A DNA stretch of 64,000 bases, taken from Sulfuracidifex tepidarius (GTDB lineage Archaea; Thermoproteota; Thermoprotei_A; Sulfolobales; Sulfolobaceae). The position numbers were made by a program, and so were the translations under genes. The notes below the pieces were generated by a model, which was not told the DNA's origin, made no database searches, and saw only the letters and a program-made list of their open reading frames with translations. How positions within the stretch are numbered: the stretch's first letter is position 1; each line of letters opens with the position of its first letter. This document shows positions 7,932 through 60,771 of this stretch, one piece after another. The stretch is from NCBI RefSeq assembly GCF_008326425.1, contig NZ_AP018929.1, positions 2,246,875 through 2,310,874 of the forward strand, given 5' to 3'.

Positions 7932-8093
7932 GGGCAATTCACGTCTCCTTTGAGAATTCAGTTTATTTATCAAAATAGAATGAATTTAATTGAACGCTAC
8001 CACATGGGCTGGGTAAGGATTCACGCTAGACAATTTCCTTTATTTGATCTGTTTTGCCATAATTACAATTCACAACTGAATCCTGAATCGCCC
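7932..8093. mobile_element. MITE-like unit, 162 bp, related to the IS at 8899-10068
   Basis: The left end reads GGGCAATTCACGTCTCCTTTG and differs by only a few bases from the IS ends (GGGCGATTCAGGTCTSCATTGC). The right end, CCTGAATCGCCC, is the inverted copy of the outer 12 bases. Internal AT-rich sequence just inside the left end also resembles the sequence just inside the IS left end. No transposase is encoded. The flanking five bases (TGCTT and TCATT) do not match, so this is an old insertion, or one end has been rebuilt. It looks like a non-autonomous derivative of the same IS type. Confidence 0.6.
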
Positions 8094-8127
8094 TCATTGA
8101 ATCTTTCCATATCATGTTGGCCCACAA

Positions 8128-8140
8128 CTTTTTATATATA
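8128..8140 (+). promoter_or_regulatory. TATA box that sets the start of the 160-residue gene
   Basis: CTTTTTATATATA, centred about 26 bases before ATG 8160. It lies 35 bases outside the MITE-like unit and argues that the longer open frame reaching into that unit is not translated. Confidence 0.55.
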
Positions 8141-8159
8141 TAATTCTATAAGTTTTACT

Positions 8160-8642
8160 ATGATAAAAGATTTTCCAAAGTTTGACTGTTTAATAACAGG
8201 AGAAAAAGAAGGTTATGATTCTGAAATAGAGGTTTATTTTGCCAAGGAATTGCAAATAGCGTCTATATTTTCAATTTTACAAAATTATGATACAGAATGG
8301 AAGGAAAATTATTCAAAAATAATAGAAATTTTAGATAAAATGGACAACTATATAGTGAATGGTAAAGATTTACCAGATTATACTCTAATCAAAGACCTTG
8401 ATAAAGGTGATTTTACGTACTCCTATTCACAGCTCCAATCAATTCAATTTTCTGAGAAAAAAATTAGCGTATCTTTGTTATACTATGTAGCAGGTTTGAT
8501 ACAAGAAAATCTATATTGGTATTCTATATTAGCTAAAAAGGATAAGTATTCAAAAAATTTTAACCTGGACGCATTTGAGATACTATATACATTGATGAGC
8601 GTTGTAAGAAAAAGAGCTTATAGTTTATCTCAAGGAAATTAG
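8160..8642 (+). CDS. hypothetical protein, 160 residues, AT-rich
   Basis: The open frame extends upstream to 7950, but that part is MITE sequence. A strong TATA-like box at 8128-8140 places the transcript start at about 8160, where ATG begins MIKDFPKFDCLITGEKEG. The protein is acidic in its first half and mostly helical, with no signal peptide, Cys cluster or recognisable motif. Codons are clearly more AT-rich than in the neighbouring metabolic genes, which suggests a different origin. I do not recognise the family. It stands alone between two mobile-element traces. Confidence 0.6.
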   Translation: MIKDFPKFDCLITGEKEGYDSEIEVYFAKELQIASIFSILQNYDTEWKENYSKIIEILDKMDNYIVNGKDLPDYTLIKDLDKGDFTYSYSQLQSIQFSEKKISVSLLYYVAGLIQENLYWYSILAKKDKYSKNFNLDAFEILYTLMSVVRKRAYSLSQGN

Positions 8643-52558: not shown

Positions 52559-52795
52559 ATGGAAGAGGTTGAGGTGACAAGAAACTATCAAACCGCAATA
52601 CCTTACGAAGCTAGACGAAAGCTCGGCATAGAGGTCGTAGACAAGTTGATAGTGACAGTTGAGGGTGATAAGATGATAATTCAGAAGAAGAAGGGGGACA
52701 TAGCATCCCTTAACCTTACGTTGGGTAAGAAAATAACTGATGAGGAGATCGACAATATAAATGAAGCCGGAGAGAATGTTGGAAGCAATAGTTGA
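52559..52795 (+). CDS. vapB: VapB-type antitoxin (AbrB/SpoVT fold)
   Basis: A 78-residue protein. Residues 1-45, EEVEVTRNYQTAIPYEARRK through LGIEVVDKLIVTVEGDKMII, form the swapped-hairpin DNA-binding fold typical of AbrB-type antitoxins. The acidic end (ITDEEIDNINEAGENVG) should fit the toxin. It overlaps the vapC gene by 35 bases, the usual layout. A TATA box 26 bases upstream supports the start. This antitoxin type differs from the ribbon-helix-helix type at 42687. Confidence 0.9.
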   Translation: MEEVEVTRNYQTAIPYEARRKLGIEVVDKLIVTVEGDKMIIQKKKGDIASLNLTLGKKITDEEIDNINEAGENVGSNS

Positions 52796-53167
52796 CACGA
52801 ACTTAATAGTAGCGATTATTTTCAGACATCACGAAAAGCATTGTGAAGCTCTTAAGGAATGGAAAGACATAGATAAGGCATATTTACCCCTGGTATGTGT
52901 CTCGGAAATCGCTTATTTCTTCATAAAGAACAGTCTTAATTTAGAAATATTAAATGAGGTCTTGAACGACCCAAAAATTGAGATAGTCCAAAACACTAAT
53001 GAAGACGTATATTATACGCTACGTAATAAAGAAGCCGTAAAAGGTTACGACGATTTCAATGACCTTCTAATACTATCTGTAGCTGGGAGACTGAACTTAC
53101 GTTACTTACCTTTGACAGAAAGTTCAAGATGAAGATGAAAAGTGGAGGTAAAAAAGACCGCGTGTAG
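52761..53167 (+). pseudogene. vapC: VapC PIN-domain toxin gene with a late one-base deletion
   Basis: The open frame (to 53132) has three of the four acidic residues: AIVDTNLIVAIIF, CVSEIAYFFIKN and KGYDDFNDLLILSVAG. It then ends in LRYLPLTESSR. Adding one base near 53091-53097 restores LTLLTFDRKFKMKMKSGG and a stop at 53165-53167. The fourth motif (T-F-D-x-x-F) would otherwise be lost. The fold is mostly complete but the active site is probably damaged. It could be a real mutation or an indel error. Confidence 0.8.
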
Positions 53168-53218: not shown

Positions 53219-54214
53219 TTAGTTTACCTTGATCAATATCCTGCCGTCTCTCGAAGGGTCAAATAACATTTTGAGGGCCTCTTGACCTTGTTCTAAGGGA
53301 TAAGTCCTCCATACCTTAACTTTGCATTTATCGCAACTGTTCAATATTTCCATTAGGTCGAGCCTCGAACCTCCTGTAGTGCCTATTATCCTCGTATAGT
53401 TGCTGTATACACGAGAGAGATCTAAACTAACGTTAGAACCTGTGATCCCTCCGAAGAACACAATCCTCCCCGCGACTCCCAACACTTGAAGGCTGGAATC
53501 CCACACGGAAGATCCAATAGAGTTGACGACAACGTCCCCCATTTTACCTTTGGTTACTCTGGATACCTCTTCCTTTACGTTTTCGTACCCCATCAAGTAG
53601 TCTGCACCGAAGTCTTTTAACCAACCCTTCCTGCTCACTGCCACTACTGTGGCACCCATCCTCTTGGCGAATTGAACTGCGAACTGACCCGTGTTCCCGG
53701 AAGCTCCGAAAACCACTACATTCTCGTTCGCCCTGACACCTGCAGACTTGAGCGCGTGATACGCGGTGAGGGCAGAGACGGGCATGCTCACTGCTAGCTC
53801 GTCGCTCATGTAATCGGGCACTTTGAAGACGTTTTTATCTGGAGCCACGAAGTACTCAGCGTAACCTCCGTTCGTCACCACGCTCATTATGCCTCCGTTC
53901 CTACACAGCATTTCCCTTGACGATAGACACATGTCGCAGGTTCCGTCGAAAACCCTGTTATACACCACAACACGGTCTCCGCTCTTGATGTTTCTCACGT
54001 GTTCTCCCACAGCTTCAACTTCTCCGTAAATCTCGGCCCCAGCTATGTGGGGCATGGGTTTCACAGGGAGGGCATTCACTACAAAGTAATCTATTGGGTT
54101 CACTCCAGCCATCTTCACCCTTATTCTAACGTCATGAGTCCCCACGTCAGGCTTTTGGACATCCGCTACCTTCAGGTTATCTACTCCACTTTTCTCAAAC
54201 GAGAGAGCTTTCAT
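53219..54214 (-). CDS. medium-chain dehydrogenase/reductase (zinc-type, quinone-reductase-like)
   Basis: A 331-residue MDR protein. The structural zinc loop is present (CDMCLSSREMLCRNGG). The catalytic-zinc Cys of alcohol dehydrogenases (G-x-C-G/H) is replaced by NPIDYFV, and G-H-E by AGAEIYG, so the enzyme likely works without catalytic zinc. The Rossmann part is VVVFGASGNTGQFAVQFAKR, NAD(P)-binding. Likely an enoyl or quinone reductase; the substrate is not readable. Single gene with an AT-rich upstream region of about 500 bases. Confidence 0.85.
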   Translation of the reverse strand: MKALSFEKSGVDNLKVADVQKPDVGTHDVRIRVKMAGVNPIDYFVVNALPVKPMPHIAGAEIYGEVEAVGEHVRNIKSGDRVVVYNRVFDGTCDMCLSSREMLCRNGGIMSVVTNGGYAEYFVAPDKNVFKVPDYMSDELAVSMPVSALTAYHALKSAGVRANENVVVFGASGNTGQFAVQFAKRMGATVVAVSRKGWLKDFGADYLMGYENVKEEVSRVTKGKMGDVVVNSIGSSVWDSSLQVLGVAGRIVFFGGITGSNVSLDLSRVYSNYTRIIGTTGGSRLDLMEILNSCDKCKVKVWRTYPLEQGQEALKMLFDPSRDGRILIKVN

Positions 54215-54709
54215 AATATATTATGATTTTATTGATAATAAAAAAATTAGCTTAATATAAGTAAAGTTACTTACTTTCACTCTAGTTTAGTAGGTGACGC
54301 ATATATCTCCCTGCTTATATTATCTTCAACATTCTCTTCAATATCTATTAATAATAAAATTTTATTACACTTCGCTTTATTGAAGTTTAAGATAAAAGAT
54401 GTAAATTTCTTTAAATAACATTATTATAAGTTAAAATATTTTACAGCTAATAAGTGTTAATCAAGCAAAAGGATGAGCCAAATGAAATGAAGAATGGAAG
54501 GAATTCGTTTAGACTTGGAGAAACAGAGAAAACTGGTATTCCGCTTGAAGTTCAGCTAATCTCTAGAGATGTCAGCAACGAGTATATTAGACAGGTAACA
54601 ATGGAGCTGGAATTCTTTAGAAGAGACGTGTAGAGTCTACATGTCTACCTAGTATCCTCAGAACCTTTAAAAGAAGAGTTATATTTTATAATAAAAATAA
54701 GCTTATAAT
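54215..54709. other. spacer with a short open frame
   Basis: A 495-base region, very AT-rich in its first half. It contains the 48-codon frame at 54487-54633 (listed separately) and the TATA box of the TPR gene near 54682-54692. Nothing else seen. Confidence 0.4.
54487..54633 (+). CDS. possible 48-residue protein or gene remnant
   Basis: A frame from ATG 54487 reading MKNGRNSFRLGETEKTGIPL and ending FFRRDV. Codon use is protein-like and GC content is higher than the sequence before it. No TATA box is at the right distance. It may be a leftover of a longer gene. I do not recognise it. Confidence 0.25.
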   Translation: MKNGRNSFRLGETEKTGIPLEVQLISRDVSNEYIRQVTMELEFFRRDV

Positions 54710-55171
54710 ATGAATATAACCGATGGAATCTCTCTTTTTAATCAAAATAAATACAGAGAGGCTCTCTCATTCTTTGAAGAATACGTAAAGGAGAACCCTG
54801 GTGATGGTAGAGCATATTATTATATCGGTATGATTTATGACGGAAGAAATAAGGAGAGAATAGCAATAGGATACTATAAGAGAGCTCTAGAGTTGGGTCT
54901 GAAGGACAAGGAGTTAATTAGTTGTCTGCTTAGCCTATCAAGTTCCTTAAGGAAAGTAGGAGAATATGAGGAGCCACTCAAATACCTTGAGAAGGCGGAA
55001 GAGTTAGGGAGCAGAGATCCTTTCCTTTACTATGTGAGGTCGTTATGTTTGATGAAGCTAGGCAGGATAAAAGAGGCTGAGGAAAACATAGAAATCGCAA
55101 TTAAGTTAAATCCTAAAGCGATCATATATAGAAGAATAAAAAATGAAATACTAAAAATATATAGTAAATAA
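54710..55171 (+). CDS. TPR-repeat protein
   Basis: A 153-residue protein made of about four tetratricopeptide repeats: LFNQNKYREALSFFEEYVKE, GRAYYYIGMIYDGRNKERIA, a third at about residues 70-105 (LRKVGEYEEPLKYLEKAEEL) and DPFLYYVRSLCLMKLGRIKE. TPRs form helical scaffolds for protein-protein contacts. It has its own TATA box and is leaderless. It precedes the small protein/cupin/MFS cassette by about 300 bases in the same direction and shares its AT-rich codon use, so it may belong to it. Confidence 0.85.
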   Translation: MNITDGISLFNQNKYREALSFFEEYVKENPGDGRAYYYIGMIYDGRNKERIAIGYYKRALELGLKDKELISCLLSLSSSLRKVGEYEEPLKYLEKAEELGSRDPFLYYVRSLCLMKLGRIKEAEENIEIAIKLNPKAIIYRRIKNEILKIYSK

Positions 55172-55466
55172 ATTATAAATAAAGAATGTCGTTATACTAA
55201 AAGTATAATAATATTCTTCCTTATATACTAGATCGAATGAGATATTTGAAAGTTTATCAAAATTATTTTCCATAAAAATGATGTGGAAGTTAGATCATTG
55301 GAGAGATCTATGGATAAATAATAAAATATATTTAAGTTAGAGCCTTATTATTTATAAAGTATTCAACCCTCAAAATGACTCGCTCATCTAGAGTTTAATT
55401 ATTTTTCATTAATTATGACAGTAATATATATATATATAGGATTGATAAGAGTTATAATGAGCAAAA
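55172..55466. other. very AT-rich spacer with promoter of the cassette
   Basis: About 295 bases, over 70% A+T by eye, without a coding frame. A run of alternating TATATATATATA at about 55424-55437 lies 30-40 bases before ATG 55467 and is the likely promoter. Confidence 0.4.
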
Positions 55467-55676
55467 ATGAGTGAATATATATATAAATCTGGTGAAAAAG
55501 ATCAAGATATATTTTTTGAGATGCAATTATTAAATGGTAATATAGCAGCGCTCGGTGTAGGTGTGAAAAGAACAACAGCAAATCTGATTGAAGAGCTACT
55601 ACGTGATCCCAATAGAGATGAAAGAGAGATAAAGAAAATAGTAGAAGAGTATGGTCACGAGTTAATAGCAGCCTAG
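55467..55676 (+). CDS. 69-residue small acidic protein, possible PqqD-like/precursor protein
   Basis: The sequence starts MSEYIYKSGEKDQDIFFEMQ, has LLNGNIAALGVGVKRTTANL in the middle, and ends with two charged helices (EELLRDPNRDEREIKKIVEE, then YGHELIAA). The last part looks like the helix-turn-helix end of PqqD-like RiPP recognition elements ('ta..i.eLl.....t.eEi...l...y'). It could equally be a peptide precursor, or neither. It lies 23 bases before a cupin gene with which it forms an operon with an MFS exporter. Function unknown. Confidence 0.6.
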   Translation: MSEYIYKSGEKDQDIFFEMQLLNGNIAALGVGVKRTTANLIEELLRDPNRDEREIKKIVEEYGHELIAA

Positions 55677-55699
55677 AAATGCCTTTCAGGTAGAATGAA

Positions 55700-56386
55700 T
55701 TGGGCGAGATTGTTAAGTCTACTGAAATAGAAGGACTAGTCTTTGAAAGAAATCATTTTTTTGATACCGGTGAAGGAAGCAGGATTCTCATACCTTCAGA
55801 AGGTTCATTATTTACCACTATAGTTTATCACGCGCCGAAAAAGAATGACGAATGGAGTTATCCCTTTTTCGCACTTCACCTTTCCGGAGACGATAAGCTA
55901 ACTTACATTAATCCTCCCTTGAACGGTGGAAAAATTATAGGAGAGTTCGTAGATTGTAGAGCTAATTCTCCAACCTTACATAAACGAATTAGAATAGAAT
56001 TTGATGCGGATCCAGACGTTTCATTAAAAATACCTGCAGGAGTAGCTCATCTATTCATGAATCTAGCAGGAGTTGTAACTAGAAATGAACCAGTATTAAG
56101 ATGGGATCCAGAGCCAGATAAGTTGTTTTCACCTATTGCTGACATATTGAACGTCTCAGCCAACGCAAAAGACGAAGAGTTTCCTGTGGTGAGGCCTCAT
56201 CGGTATGTGGTTCCATTGAGTTACCATCAGTACATAGCTAGCCTTCATAGAAAGTGGAGCGAAAGAGTAAAGGTTTATCCCGTAAGACTTGTGATAAAAG
56301 ACAAAAGTTATTACATTATCCCAAAGGAATACGGATCTAATTATGTCTCTAAGTTTACCTCTAATTTGTCAAAAAATTCCATATAG
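55700..56386 (+). CDS. RmlC-like cupin protein
   Basis: A 228-residue protein starting at TTG 55700 after AGGT-like sequence. The cupin core resembles dTDP-4-dehydrorhamnose 3,5-epimerase: KRIRIEFDADPDVSLKIPAG followed by VAHLFMNLAGVVTRNEPVLR, compared with 'l.IP.G.AHgF..l...t...Y'. The usual catalytic His before this (xxxHxR) is not clearly visible, so an epimerase call is uncertain. The C-terminal part (RPHRYVVPLSYHQYIASLHR) is extra. It is between the 69-residue protein and the MFS exporter; a peptide- or sugar-modifying role is inferred. Confidence 0.65.
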   Translation: MGEIVKSTEIEGLVFERNHFFDTGEGSRILIPSEGSLFTTIVYHAPKKNDEWSYPFFALHLSGDDKLTYINPPLNGGKIIGEFVDCRANSPTLHKRIRIEFDADPDVSLKIPAGVAHLFMNLAGVVTRNEPVLRWDPEPDKLFSPIADILNVSANAKDEEFPVVRPHRYVVPLSYHQYIASLHRKWSERVKVYPVRLVIKDKSYYIIPKEYGSNYVSKFTSNLSKNSI

Positions 56387-56394
56387 GATTGTAG

Positions 56395-57615
56395 GTGAAG
56401 TTTATAGCCAAAACTTGGTATAATAAGGGTTTCATCTACTACATGATAGGCAGATTGCTTGAGTTAGCGGAAGCAGTGTTTTATCCTGCTATAATGGTTT
56501 TTATTATATTTTTTATTACTAGATCGCCAATTTTCGTCTCCCTGGTCTACTTCGTTGAGATGATAGTCAACTTAGTGGGTACAACATATTTCTCAAAGCT
56601 ACCTCGAAGGTTTTCCCTGAAGAAGTTGCTCATTTTCCCTACTTTCCTCTCAGCAATTAACGACTTTTCCTTCGCCACTATTATAAAAGCATTCTTGAAC
56701 CAAACATTAACTGACGTAATATTCATTTTAGTGAGCACTACAATCACATCTTTCCTTTTTACTTTCACCTACAGTGCACGAAGGCTCTACGTTTATAACG
56801 TGATAGGCAAAGACTTCTTGAATAAGGCGTACTCTGTTCTGTCAGGGACAAACCAAGCAGTTCAGCTTATTTCGTACCTAATAATTGCGTTAGCTCTAAA
56901 TATAAATAATTTTCAGATATTAATTTACATAGGCGTAGCATTGACCTTACTTGGGGTGCTTTTCTATTTCCTGTTGTCAGATGTAAAGGTCGATTATCGC
57001 TCAAAGGAACAAGAGGACAGAGAAGGAGAAAATCTCTTCTCTTTAAAGAAGGATTTCAAGTTGCTCTTAGGTTATAGGAAACTTTTACTTCTAATCATGA
57101 TGTCGTCGATTTTCAACTTTCTTACAACTTTCCCTTCTACCTTAGAAGTAGTGTACATATCTGCATTTCACATCCTTTCATCTAAGTACACTATCCTCGA
57201 GTCACTGAACTTCTTAGGATCAATCGTGGGATCATATGTGGTTAATTTTCAGTCCAGTAAAAGACTTACCTTTAACTTGGTTTTATCCCTCTTTCTAACC
57301 TCGTTCTTCATTTTAGGGCTTTCCTTGACGAGATCTTTCACTGTAGGTCTTGCACTTTATGGTGTGATCGGTCTATCTTCAGCCTTATTCTCAGTGTCGT
57401 ATACATCTTTCTTCCAGATGACCTGCCCTAAGGAGAATCTAGACGTGTTTTCAGGCATAGAAAGTACCTTATCATACATTTTCGTGCCCGCGGGGATGTT
57501 GCTCAGCGGTATAATAACGACCTTAGTTGGAGTGTTCAACGCTTTTCTTATAATATCAATAATTTCCTTTATTGTTTCCCTAATGGCGTTTTTCATAACT
57601 AAAACAAGGCTCTAA
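56395..57615 (+). CDS. MFS exporter, 12-TM, of the small-protein cassette
   Basis: A 406-residue membrane protein with 12 hydrophobic segments and a cytosolic charged loop in the middle (KVDYRSKEQEDREGENLFSL). Loop 2-3 is short and degenerate (FSKLPRRFSLKKLLIFP). The GTG start lies in TAGGTGA, eight bases after the cupin stop, so the two are co-translated. The AT-rich codon use agrees with the cassette. It could export the product of the upstream genes; no substrate can be inferred. Confidence 0.8.
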   Translation: MKFIAKTWYNKGFIYYMIGRLLELAEAVFYPAIMVFIIFFITRSPIFVSLVYFVEMIVNLVGTTYFSKLPRRFSLKKLLIFPTFLSAINDFSFATIIKAFLNQTLTDVIFILVSTTITSFLFTFTYSARRLYVYNVIGKDFLNKAYSVLSGTNQAVQLISYLIIALALNINNFQILIYIGVALTLLGVLFYFLLSDVKVDYRSKEQEDREGENLFSLKKDFKLLLGYRKLLLLIMMSSIFNFLTTFPSTLEVVYISAFHILSSKYTILESLNFLGSIVGSYVVNFQSSKRLTFNLVLSLFLTSFFILGLSLTRSFTVGLALYGVIGLSSALFSVSYTSFFQMTCPKENLDVFSGIESTLSYIFVPAGMLLSGIITTLVGVFNAFLIISIISFIVSLMAFFITKTRL

Positions 57616-57881
57616 TGTCAACAAGTTTGTGATTTTTTAGAATTTTTGATTTAATTACAATTTCTTTCATGGTTTCTATTTAGCCAGGAAAATTCTCATG
57701 AAATGTTCTGACCTTACGGACATGGATTCATTCTTGATAGCCATCAACTTGAGAGATTAATCGGACGAGAAGAGGCAAACACTGGAGCTGAGGTCGGAAC
57801 GACCCTGATAGATTGAAGTAACATTTATGAATAGACAGTAATTCTGTTGATGTACCAGAGATTACGCTTCATTAACTATCA
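57616..57881. other. spacer
   Basis: About 265 bases without a gene; T-rich runs just after the MFS gene (GTGATTTTTTAG) may end the cassette transcript. Confidence 0.35.
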
Positions 57882-58007
57882 TTATTTTACCAAGACAACT
57901 AGACGAGGTTTACCCTCTTTAAATATCATGAATTTGACCTCTGATTTTGTCTGTACTTGTGTATCACTTTCTAAATCTGAGATCTTAATGTGTTGACTAT
58001 CTCTCAA
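57882..58007 (-). CDS. possible 41-residue small protein with TTG start
   Basis: The open frame is longer (to 58097), but a TATA-like TTTATATT at 58033-58040 lies 26 bases before TTG 58007. From there the protein reads LRDSQHIKISDLESDTQV and ends with FMIFKEGKPRLVVLVK, a well-formed sequence with good codons. No family recognised. Together the promoter and codon use make a small leaderless gene plausible. Confidence 0.35.
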   Translation of the reverse strand: MRDSQHIKISDLESDTQVQTKSEVKFMIFKEGKPRLVVLVK

Positions 58008-58083
58008 TTTGGTCTTATGTCCCCAACCTAACAATATAAATGAAGTGTCTTGAAAAACAAGTCGGAATCCTGAAAACCTACTT

Positions 58084-59418
58084 TCAACCGAAGTCAAGTC
58101 TCTTTAGGAAGTTGGGTATGAACCCATCCATGGAGGATATGGAACTCGAAATACCTTTTAAAGGCATTATAACCACTTTCCCGAGAAGCCCTCCTAAGTC
58201 AACCACGGACCCTGGCTTACCATCTACGGGTACAAGCCTCACTCCAAGCGACTTGTTCAAGGAAAGGCCCAAGGTCAGTTCGTCCAGTATCATGGAAGCT
58301 ACCTCGTTTCTGTCGGAATCCTTGCTTATTCCAACCATGTCTATCCCAGTGTTACACACTGCAGACATCATGATCAGAGTTTCGAAAGTAATGGAACCTG
58401 ACATGGCTGCTTCCGTCATGCCGGAGTCCTCGCTCACCGGTATGAAGGCGCCGCTCAACCCCCCGACCGAGGATGTGGCCATCGCCCCTCCCTTCTTTAC
58501 CGCATCCAAGAGAATCGCCAGGGCTGTCAACGACCCGAAACCTCCGACCCTCTGTACTCCCATAGCTTCAATTACCCTAGCTACGCTGTCCATTGTCTTC
58601 GGGGAGGGAGCTAACGACAAGTCTACCGCTCCGAAAGGGACGTTCATGAGCCTCGACACTTCCTTTCCTACTAACTCCCCTAGTCTAGTTACCTTGAACG
58701 CATGCCTCTTTATCAGGTTATGTAGCTCCCTTATGTCGTTCACTCTGTTCTTCCTTATCGCTGACTCTATCACCCCTGGTCCGCTTACAGCAACGTTGAC
58801 CTGCATGTCGGGCATCCCCAACCCGTGAGTTGCGGAGGGGACGAAGGGGGAATCGGGTGGGAGGTTGACCATCACTGCGACTCTTGAAGATGACTCGGGT
58901 CTCATGTCAAAAATTTGATCCACGAAGCCCCTCACAGACCCCAAGTTGATCCCGCTGAACGTAGAACCTGCAGAGAGGACACCCGCAATCCTACTAGTGC
59001 TGTTCATCACGTCTGCCAGAGACGATATGTAGACGTCAGCGCTCCTCGATGTACCTCTGTCAGCGAAAGCCGAGAACCCTCCCACGTAGTCTATCCCTCC
59101 CTTGATAGCGAGGGAATCTAGGGCTTTACCTAGCTTGATAGCATAGCCCTTGGAGGGGTTCGCCTCAAGGAAGAACTGAACCGGCGAGGTCGCGACTCTC
59201 TTTGTGATTATACTTACACCGTACTTTTCTTTCACTTCGTCGACTACTTGAGAGAACCTCTGAACTACCTCTACTCTATCCATGATTCTGGAGACAGATC
59301 TCTCCTCTTCTCTATCGATGGCGTCGAGCATGTTCATACTCAGAGTCACAGACCTTATGTCCAGGTCTTCCTCCGTAAGCATCTTTATTACTTCAGTTAT
59401 CTCCTCAGGAGAGAACAT
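58084..59418 (-). CDS. UPF0210 (PFL-like, DUF711) family protein
   Basis: A 444-residue protein of the UPF0210 family, related in fold to pyruvate formate-lyase-like barrels but without radical function known. Visible stretches are LDIRSVTLSMNMLDAIDREE, GGIDYVGGFSAFADRGTSRS, FGAVDLSLAPSPKTMDSVAR and GGLSGAFIPVSEDSGMTEAA. The family is almost always encoded next to an ACT-domain protein, as here, where only one base lies between the ACT stop and this ATG. The biochemical role is unknown; regulation by amino acids or nucleotides is often assumed. Confidence 0.9.
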   Translation of the reverse strand: MFSPEEITEVIKMLTEEDLDIRSVTLSMNMLDAIDREEERSVSRIMDRVEVVQRFSQVVDEVKEKYGVSIITKRVATSPVQFFLEANPSKGYAIKLGKALDSLAIKGGIDYVGGFSAFADRGTSRSADVYISSLADVMNSTSRIAGVLSAGSTFSGINLGSVRGFVDQIFDMRPESSSRVAVMVNLPPDSPFVPSATHGLGMPDMQVNVAVSGPGVIESAIRKNRVNDIRELHNLIKRHAFKVTRLGELVGKEVSRLMNVPFGAVDLSLAPSPKTMDSVARVIEAMGVQRVGGFGSLTALAILLDAVKKGGAMATSSVGGLSGAFIPVSEDSGMTEAAMSGSITFETLIMMSAVCNTGIDMVGISKDSDRNEVASMILDELTLGLSLNKSLGVRLVPVDGKPGSVVDLGGLLGKVVIMPLKGISSSISSMDGFIPNFLKRLDFG

Positions 59419-59419
59419 G

Positions 59420-59692
59420 TCAGATCCTCTCTATGTAGTTGAACACATCTATATGATAAAGCAACACGTCGACATTGAGGTCTTTCCCCTTGTTTTTCAG
59501 GGAATCCCTCAGCTGACCTATCTTCACAGACGAGTTTGAGATGTCTACGACCATTATCATGGAGAAGACCCCTCTGAGGACGGTCTGGGAGATGTCTACT
59601 ATGTTCACGTTGTTTTTTGCTAACTCAGATGATATCCCGGCTACAATTCCCGGCTTATCCGAACCGACCACCACTACAACAGCAAGTTCCAT
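59420..59692 (-). CDS. ACT-domain protein (UPF0237 family)
   Basis: A 90-residue single ACT domain: VVVVVGSDKPGIVAGISSEL, then NNVNIVDISQTVLRGVFSMI, then a C-terminal strand pair. D-K-P-G at the first turn is the ligand-binding spot of GcvR/ACT domains. ACT domains bind amino acids. It is the first gene of an operon with the UPF0210 protein, its constant partner, and may be its sensor subunit. The promoter lies in the AT-rich part near 59700-59730. Confidence 0.93.
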   Translation of the reverse strand: MELAVVVVVGSDKPGIVAGISSELAKNNVNIVDISQTVLRGVFSMIMVVDISNSSVKIGQLRDSLKNKGKDLNVDVLLYHIDVFNYIERI

Positions 59693-59805
59693 AAGGAGAA
59701 ATGTAAGTTCAAGGATTTAAGTGAAGAGAAGAGATTCTGTATGTTAGGCTCTATCTGCATCTCTCGCGAAACCTTCAAGATGTGGAAAAGCTACATGGTC
59801 TAGAG

Positions 59806-60771
59806 ATGAACCTTAAGTTAGTGGAATTTGAGAGCGAATCACTAAAGGACAACCCCTTGAAAGACCCTTACAAGAGGAAAGTTGCAGTAATAGAGCCGGA
59901 AAACCCCCAGGGAAAACCCTTGATCATTTACCTCAGCGGTTTCCTCAGCTCCTCCTTGTCCATGTTGAACTACGACCCTTTCTCAGAGGACATGAAGACG
60001 AGGCTGGAGAGGATGAAAGCTGAAGGGAAATCCAACGGGGTCGTGATGGTACTTCCGGACACTTTCACTAAGATGGGAGGGAATCAGTACCTGAACTCAT
60101 CTGCCGTGGGCAACTACGAGGACTACGTTATGGAGGTAGTGAAGACGCTTTCTGAAACATACAAGACAGACAAGATAGGGATAATGGGTAAGTCCTCGGG
60201 AGGATACGGCTCTGTCATGATAGGGATGAAACACAAGGAGATCAGGGCTATCGCTGACCACTCAGGTGACGCTTACTTCGAGTACATATATATTCCCGAG
60301 TTCCCCGTGGCAATAGAGAGGCTCGGTAGGTTTTCCTCATGGAGGGAATGGTTCACGACGTTCTGGAACAGGGAGACCAAGAAGAGAAGGGACGAGTTAA
60401 CCACTCTCATGATCTTAGCAATGTCAGCGTTCTACTCACCCAGGGGAGAAGACGTGGAACTGCCTTTCAGCTTAGAGACCGGCGAGATAGTGGAGGACGT
60501 ATGGAAGAGATGGGTAGAGAAGGATCCAGTTAGGGCTTTAAAGAACTACGTGACTGCCCTCAGAGAAAAGGAAGTGGTTTACATAGACGTGGGCAAAAGG
60601 GACGAGTACAACATACAGTACGGCAGTAGGATTATTCACTCCATCCTTTCTAAGTCTGGAGTTGACCACGTCTACGAGGAGTTCGATGGTGGGCACCACG
60701 ACACTTCCTTTAGATACGATTATTCGATAGCCATTTTGGAGAAGTATTTAAATGATGGAGAGAAACAATGA
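59806..60771 (+). CDS. alpha/beta-hydrolase, esterase D-like
   Basis: A 321-residue hydrolase. The nucleophile elbow is IGIMGKSSGGYGSVMIG (G-x-S-x-G with Ser in KSSGG), the oxyanion strand is LIIYLSGFLSS, and the late acid and His are in VVYIDVGKRDEYN and EFDGGHHDTSFRY. The family cleaves esters or thioesters in the cytosol. The frame opens at GTG 59782, but MNLKLVEFESESL matches the usual opening strand. Its last bases overlap the next start (ATGA), so it is coupled to the ATPase-like gene that follows. No signal peptide. Confidence 0.88.
   Translation: MNLKLVEFESESLKDNPLKDPYKRKVAVIEPENPQGKPLIIYLSGFLSSSLSMLNYDPFSEDMKTRLERMKAEGKSNGVVMVLPDTFTKMGGNQYLNSSAVGNYEDYVMEVVKTLSETYKTDKIGIMGKSSGGYGSVMIGMKHKEIRAIADHSGDAYFEYIYIPEFPVAIERLGRFSSWREWFTTFWNRETKKRRDELTTLMILAMSAFYSPRGEDVELPFSLETGEIVEDVWKRWVEKDPVRALKNYVTALREKEVVYIDVGKRDEYNIQYGSRIIHSILSKSGVDHVYEEFDGGHHDTSFRYDYSIAILEKYLNDGEKQ

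Follow-up and report, generated by a model that had tools for sequence, protein, structure and literature searches.

A gene set for a small protein, an RmlC-fold cupin and an MFS exporter, shared by bacteria and Sulfuracidifex tepidarius, and its possible role in a RiPP-like pathway

A gene set encoding a small protein, an RmlC-fold cupin and an MFS exporter was found to recur across bacterial phyla, and one copy lies in an AT-rich island in the genome of the archaeon Sulfuracidifex tepidarius. The association of small ORF, cupin and MFS gene across phyla is the firm result of this study. It suggests that the gene set represents a shared, transferable pathway which makes and exports a product from the small protein. 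The reading favoured here, in which our confidence is evenly balanced, is that of a horizontally acquired RiPP-like pathway where the small protein would be the target of the RmlC-fold cupin, and the processed product would leave through the MFS protein. The gene set crosses the boundary between bacteria and archaea and is apparently undescribed, with its small protein unnamed in Pfam and NCBIfam. No published description was found in a literature search which covered few subscription journals, a prior description therefore being possible.

The preliminary description of this DNA had outlined an AT-rich cassette of three packed genes preceded by a TPR gene. An ORF check of the window (the whole stretch of S. 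tepidarius DNA analysed, 64 kb in length) bore out this layout in full, including coordinates and gaps, with all four ORFs on the plus strand. The first gene (54710–55171) encodes a small TPR protein of 153 aa (PF07719), a probable accessory component. It is followed by the gene for a 69-aa small protein (55467–55676), the candidate substrate or precursor, by that for a 228-aa RmlC-fold cupin with a TTG start (55700–56386; PF00908), the putative modifying enzyme, and by that for a 406-aa MFS exporter with a GTG start (56395–57615; MFS_1, TIGR00900). A gap of 23 bp separates the 69-aa gene from the cupin gene, and one of 8 bp the cupin gene from the MFS gene. The TPR gene, with 295 bp between it and the downstream 69-aa gene, is probably transcribed apart from the other three. 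A TATA-like AT run 5′ of the 69-aa gene (55423–55439, plus strand) may, judging from sequence alone, be a promoter. AT-rich codons had been ascribed to all three packed genes. This holds for the 69-aa gene (GC3 of 0.22) and the cupin gene (0.31), which are clearly AT-rich, but the MFS gene (0.45) is mildly so when set against the other long ORFs of the window (0.53 ± 0.08); the TPR gene has a GC3 of 0.37. It should also be noted that a 230-aa ORF at 7950–8642 has the lowest GC3 (0.25) among the long ORFs of the window and is possibly another foreign gene.

The cassette is held within an AT-rich island of 3.8 kb (54289–58083, no strand assigned) which is missing from the congener G183. Window positions 53221–54288 and 58084–59999 match one 6-kb stretch of the G183 genome with 80% DNA identity. 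The genes which flank the island, an alcohol dehydrogenase-like gene (53219–54214) and a 444-aa gene (58084–59418), sit 275 bp apart in G183, and the window DNA between 54288 and 58084 is unaligned. No direct repeats of note were detected flanking the island, and no second copy of its leading 422 bp was found in the genome. The island has either been gained in S. tepidarius or lost in G183, with gain by transfer appearing the simpler reading because the cupin and MFS genes are missing from 30 other genomes of the family, in which no MFS relatives were detected at E ≤ 1e-5. With the cupin profile, the window scored 200 bits and no other of the 398 sampled Thermoproteota genomes scored above 38.5 bits, this runner-up being an ordinary RmlC. 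Among these genomes S. tepidarius alone has the cassette cupin. On genome comparison the cassette is foreign, and it is a rare archaeal representative of a family found mainly in bacteria. A 59-aa ORF (54454–54633) at the left edge of the island has no family match, is present as a single copy in the genome and may be a remnant. Just outside the island, a MazE/AbrB-type antitoxin gene (52559–52795) overlaps a PIN-domain toxin gene (52761–53132), the latter being AT-rich too (GC3 of 0.37).

A single-sequence scan of genome contigs with the window cupin returned no match, and its bacterial relatives surfaced only through plasmids and then with an alignment as query. Using tblastn, cupin homologues of 28–34% identity were found in plasmids of Streptomyces, Pantoea, Chimaeribacter, Proteus and Leptolyngbya, and an alignment-based cupin scan of GTDB species genomes brought the number up by a further 51 loci, these being from Bacillota, Actinomycetota, Pseudomonadota and Bacteroidota. 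In total, 58 cupin-anchored loci were compared, mostly with 6–8 kb on each side, from these four phyla, cyanobacteria and S. tepidarius. A small ORF adjoins the cupin gene or genes in 55 of the 58. An MFS gene was placed within 1.5 kb of the cupin in 47 loci by script, or 48–49 with two loci judged by eye, namely those of Xenorhabdus (L079), where cupin genes stand on both sides of the MFS gene, and Proteus penneri (L106), where the MFS gene is broken. The proposal that the four genes belong together is supported, and the layout of small protein, RmlC-fold cupin and exporter recurs across phyla; the cassette is not confined to S. tepidarius, and nothing found here speaks specifically for the bacteriocin-like product suggested at the outset. 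Enterobacterial cassettes have the same small protein-cupin-MFS order as the window. The distribution of the cassettes is patchy and sometimes plasmid-borne, as in secondary metabolism.

The association was also seen from the side of the small proteins, three bacterial types of which were used as queries against 72,556 plasmid records. The enterobacterial type matched four records and one Streptomyces type three, with the cupin present in 7/7, and the third type had no match in these records. The reverse pattern, a small protein found mostly without the cupin, had been put forward as evidence against the idea and was not seen in these records. The window MFS protein matched MFS_1 (E 1.6e-17) and TIGR00900 (E 1e-17), the latter being the top NCBIfam match both of this protein and of 8/8 bacterial cassette MFS proteins tested; against a profile of 44 MFS proteins from the loci it gave an E of 6e-25. 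Within the loci, no further biosynthetic gene able to supply a small molecule was seen to recur beside the small ORF, cupin and MFS genes, nor was any known RiPP enzyme (YcaO, LanM, radical SAM). There were no matches in phages or in E. coli. Defence-system models gave weak TPR matches only, and PHROGs gave TPR and weak RmlC matches with nothing convincing for the small proteins.

The small proteins of the bacterial cassettes are approximately 80–135 aa in length and fall into two groups, each with a conserved C-terminal part. A G-I-K, G-K-I or, in one case, G-K-V motif is present in 48 of 50, mostly 29–40 residues from the C-terminus, and the remaining two, both Proteobacterial, read N-I-K. 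In the enterobacterial type, G-I-K is located exactly 35 residues from the C-terminus, which is also the spacing of the G-V-K of the window protein (residues 32–34; codons at 55560–55568). The 69-aa protein itself belongs to no Pfam or NCBIfam family. In shuffles of its sequence, the chance of such a motif 30–38 residues from the end was 1.5%, and 1 of 1000 shuffles equalled the mean score of the protein in alignments with 13 members of the family, although both tests were picked after the pattern had been seen and overstate the match somewhat. With HMMs of the bacterial small proteins, the score of the window protein was not above that of shuffles. Operon position and size class match those of the small proteins in the bacterial cassettes. 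What ties the window protein to them is its position, the spacing of the motif and the mean alignment score, and it is likely to be homologous to the bacterial ones. An AlphaFold2 model of the 69-aa protein yielded a rough layout of a flexible middle and a C-terminal helix-helix-strand at low confidence (mean pLDDT 61). A viral match to the 69-aa protein (L062) was dropped as a repeat within a 2464-aa viral protein, and matches in other genomes of the order were weak and mostly inside larger frames.

For the favoured RiPP-like pathway, we infer the substrate, modification site, reaction, product and role of the TPR protein as follows. The 69-aa protein would be a gene-encoded substrate, recognised through its C-terminal helix-helix-strand and altered in the flexible stretch that contains Gly-Val-Lys. 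Its modification would be the work of the cupin, through acid-base chemistry like that of RmlC, with no cofactor, e.g. epimerisation or isomerisation at a position adjoining a carbonyl. As a helper, the TPR protein may bind the peptide, and the small processed product would be exported by the MFS protein. This reading is favoured because of weak matches to Frankia_peptide and Nif11 leaders, a C39 peptidase in one locus and the MFS exporters, none of which is decisive. The matches, all sub-cut-off, come from some of the bacterial small proteins (PF14407, E 0.0012; TIGR03798 Nif11 leader, E 0.0012; PF07862, E 0.02–0.08). The Peptidase_C39 gene lies close downstream in one Chitinophagales locus and in no other bacterial locus; this domain type processes RiPP leaders. 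The window cassette has no protease gene, and no double-Gly site is evident in its 69-aa protein.

The likeness to Nif11-like and Frankia_peptide precursors (E 0.001–0.08) lies mainly in a C-terminal helix and a G-Y-x-V end, and in these systems too a small ORF adjoins an enzyme and an exporter. Curated RiPP-precursor models, however, gave no match for the window protein and none above cut-off for its bacterial relatives, and no YcaO, LanM or radical SAM gene was seen to recur in the cassettes. The leader-like part also lies at the very C-terminus of the cassette proteins, and it counts against a RiPP-like pathway that little or nothing comes after this conserved region, which resembles the end of a leader. 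So do the one cupin domain of the window, where most bacterial systems have two, the long branch of the window cupin in the tree and the non-significant profile scores of the window small protein. RiPP pathways with MFS export, such as those of the ryptides and the biphenomycin-like pbs cluster, resemble the cassette in having a gene-encoded peptide, a tailoring enzyme and an MFS exporter, and the ryptide-export MFS model in NCBIfam is a precedent for RiPP export by this kind of protein. The pbs cluster has an MFS gene and a cupin-fold hydroxylase; modification there is carried out by an MNIO, a B12-radical SAM enzyme, an arginase and a JmjC-type cupin hydroxylase, and the precursor carries the motif FHAFRF (PMC12257519). 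It differs from the cassettes in that none of its enzymes is an RmlC-type cupin and in that FHAFRF is unlike the motif of the cassette small proteins.

The bolder form of the proposal, which can be put forward tentatively as somewhat doubtful, is a new RiPP-like class, present in bacteria and in at least one archaeon, whose RmlC-fold cupins would alter a peptide in a way not known for the fold (e.g. cofactor-free epimerisation or isomerisation at the conserved Gly-Ile/Val-Lys) and whose MFS protein would release the product. We know of no peptide modification by an RmlC-fold cupin. If the cupin does modify the small protein, a sugar-epimerase fold would join the chemistry of peptide tailoring, and no version would be simpler to study than the archaeal one with its single cupin.

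In the main rival to a RiPP-like pathway, the small protein serves the cupin as a partner or regulator, be it as an obligatory subunit, a chaperone or a sensor, with the cupin acting on an independent small molecule which the MFS protein exports. The bacterial small proteins are conserved well past a short core and up to the C-terminus, which suits a folded partner, and the MFS subfamily, to which EntS and Mef belong, is one that exports small molecules. Some of the small proteins are also labelled XRE regulators by NCBI, but no helix-turn-helix domain passes in Pfam. Against a partner role, no biosynthetic gene recurs in the loci which could supply the small molecule, and the sub-threshold matches of the small proteins are to RiPP precursors. 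This explanation is considered rather unlikely; the association of the genes stands under either reading.

A further alternative sees in the cupin a nucleotide-sugar epimerase which has diverged and which serves the making of a surface glycan or a glycosylated compound, with the small protein incidental. The preliminary description had likewise pointed to the sugar or epimerase role of RmlC-type cupins. The cupin does have this fold. It was assigned to the dTDP_sugar_isom/RmlC family PF00908 at 27.8 bits, barely over the cut-off of 27, and its AlphaFold2 model (mean pLDDT 82.8, core mostly >90, residues 194–228 not confident) has RmlC-type epimerases as its best Foldseek matches (E 2.6e-7, probability 1.0), placing it in the RmlC cupin fold by predicted structure. 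The cassette cupins share with RmlC (dTDP-4-dehydrorhamnose 3,5-epimerase) a D-x-R-x-x-S-P-T strand, an I-P-x-G-x-A-H motif and a G-[IL]-H strand end. The histidine of this strand end, H60 in the window cupin, is near invariant in the family and may match the catalytic one of RmlC, although the alignment to RmlC is offset by 4–5 columns here; where RmlC has its Tyr, the window cupin has Arg or Trp. On the other hand, the window cupin scored 17.7 bits against the RmlC equivalog TIGR01221, far below the cut-off of 155.75, and the N-terminal substrate motif D-x-R-G-F-F-x-E (RGFF-E) of the aligned archaeal RmlCs is missing from it and from the cassette cupins aligned. In the phylogenetic tree, the cassette cupins form a clade separate from the RmlC sugar epimerases with a support of 100/100; the window cupin lies within it on a long branch with poorly resolved placement. 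No dTDP-sugar genes were found in the island, and an ordinary RmlC is encoded elsewhere in the S. tepidarius genome. Beside the cassette cupins stand a small-protein gene and an MFS gene rather than sugar genes, and these cupins often have two tandem domains, two being present in most bacterial systems and one in the window. A sugar epimerase role for the window cupin is judged unlikely because of the absent RGFF-E motif, curated score and adjoining sugar genes, and since the small protein accompanies the cupin in 55 of the loci, this whole explanation is improbable. The window cupin has 33% identity to that of a Streptomyces plasmid cassette (E 2e-26), and the TTG start is backed by a colinear N-terminus in a Streptomyces homologue (MGEVIQETEISGLRLERN against MGEIVKSTEIEGLVFERN).

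The TPR protein (PF07719, E 5e-18) matched a profile of bacterial cupin-linked TPR proteins, built with the window left out, over 120 residues (69.6 bits, E 7.5e-20), and this family was found in 10 of the 58 loci, in each case no more than 2.3 kb from the cupin. This linkage would suit a gene set whose product is not an antimicrobial but a peptide signal, with the TPR protein as the intracellular peptide receptor, since a peptide exporter with a TPR protein is the layout of RRNPP-type quorum sensing systems. The protein has no DNA-binding or phosphatase domain, however, and is absent from most loci. The same TPR family also occurs solo, in differing neighbourhoods, in five other genomes of the window's family (L160, L161, L162, L163 and L164), with no cupin, small-protein or MFS profile match nearby. 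A peptide signal is accordingly rated as quite improbable. The TPR protein as an obligatory part was rejected because of the small number of loci with it and its solo occurrence, and it is an accessory part of the set, not a defining one.

That unrelated AT-rich genes came together by chance is very improbable: the 295-bp distance and solo occurrence of the TPR gene and the weak similarity of the window small protein to the bacterial ones would allow it, but all four components recur together in bacteria, with the enterobacterial gene order being that of the window, and more than chance is indicated because the segment is an insertion relative to the congener and bacteria unrelated to one another have these genes side by side. 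With its enterobacterial and Bacillus versions, the set can be tested in ordinary laboratory hosts. Among the bacterial loci, a run of four cupin genes, two genes for G-K-I small proteins and two MFS genes on a Streptomyces plasmid (L063:3500–10884) resembles two joined cassettes. In the cassettes of Janthinobacterium (L117:9316–10482) and Methylocystis (L096:5902–7227), homologous genes for proteins of approximately 390–440 aa (36% identity, without Pfam match) sit after the cupin gene, in the usual place of the MFS gene.
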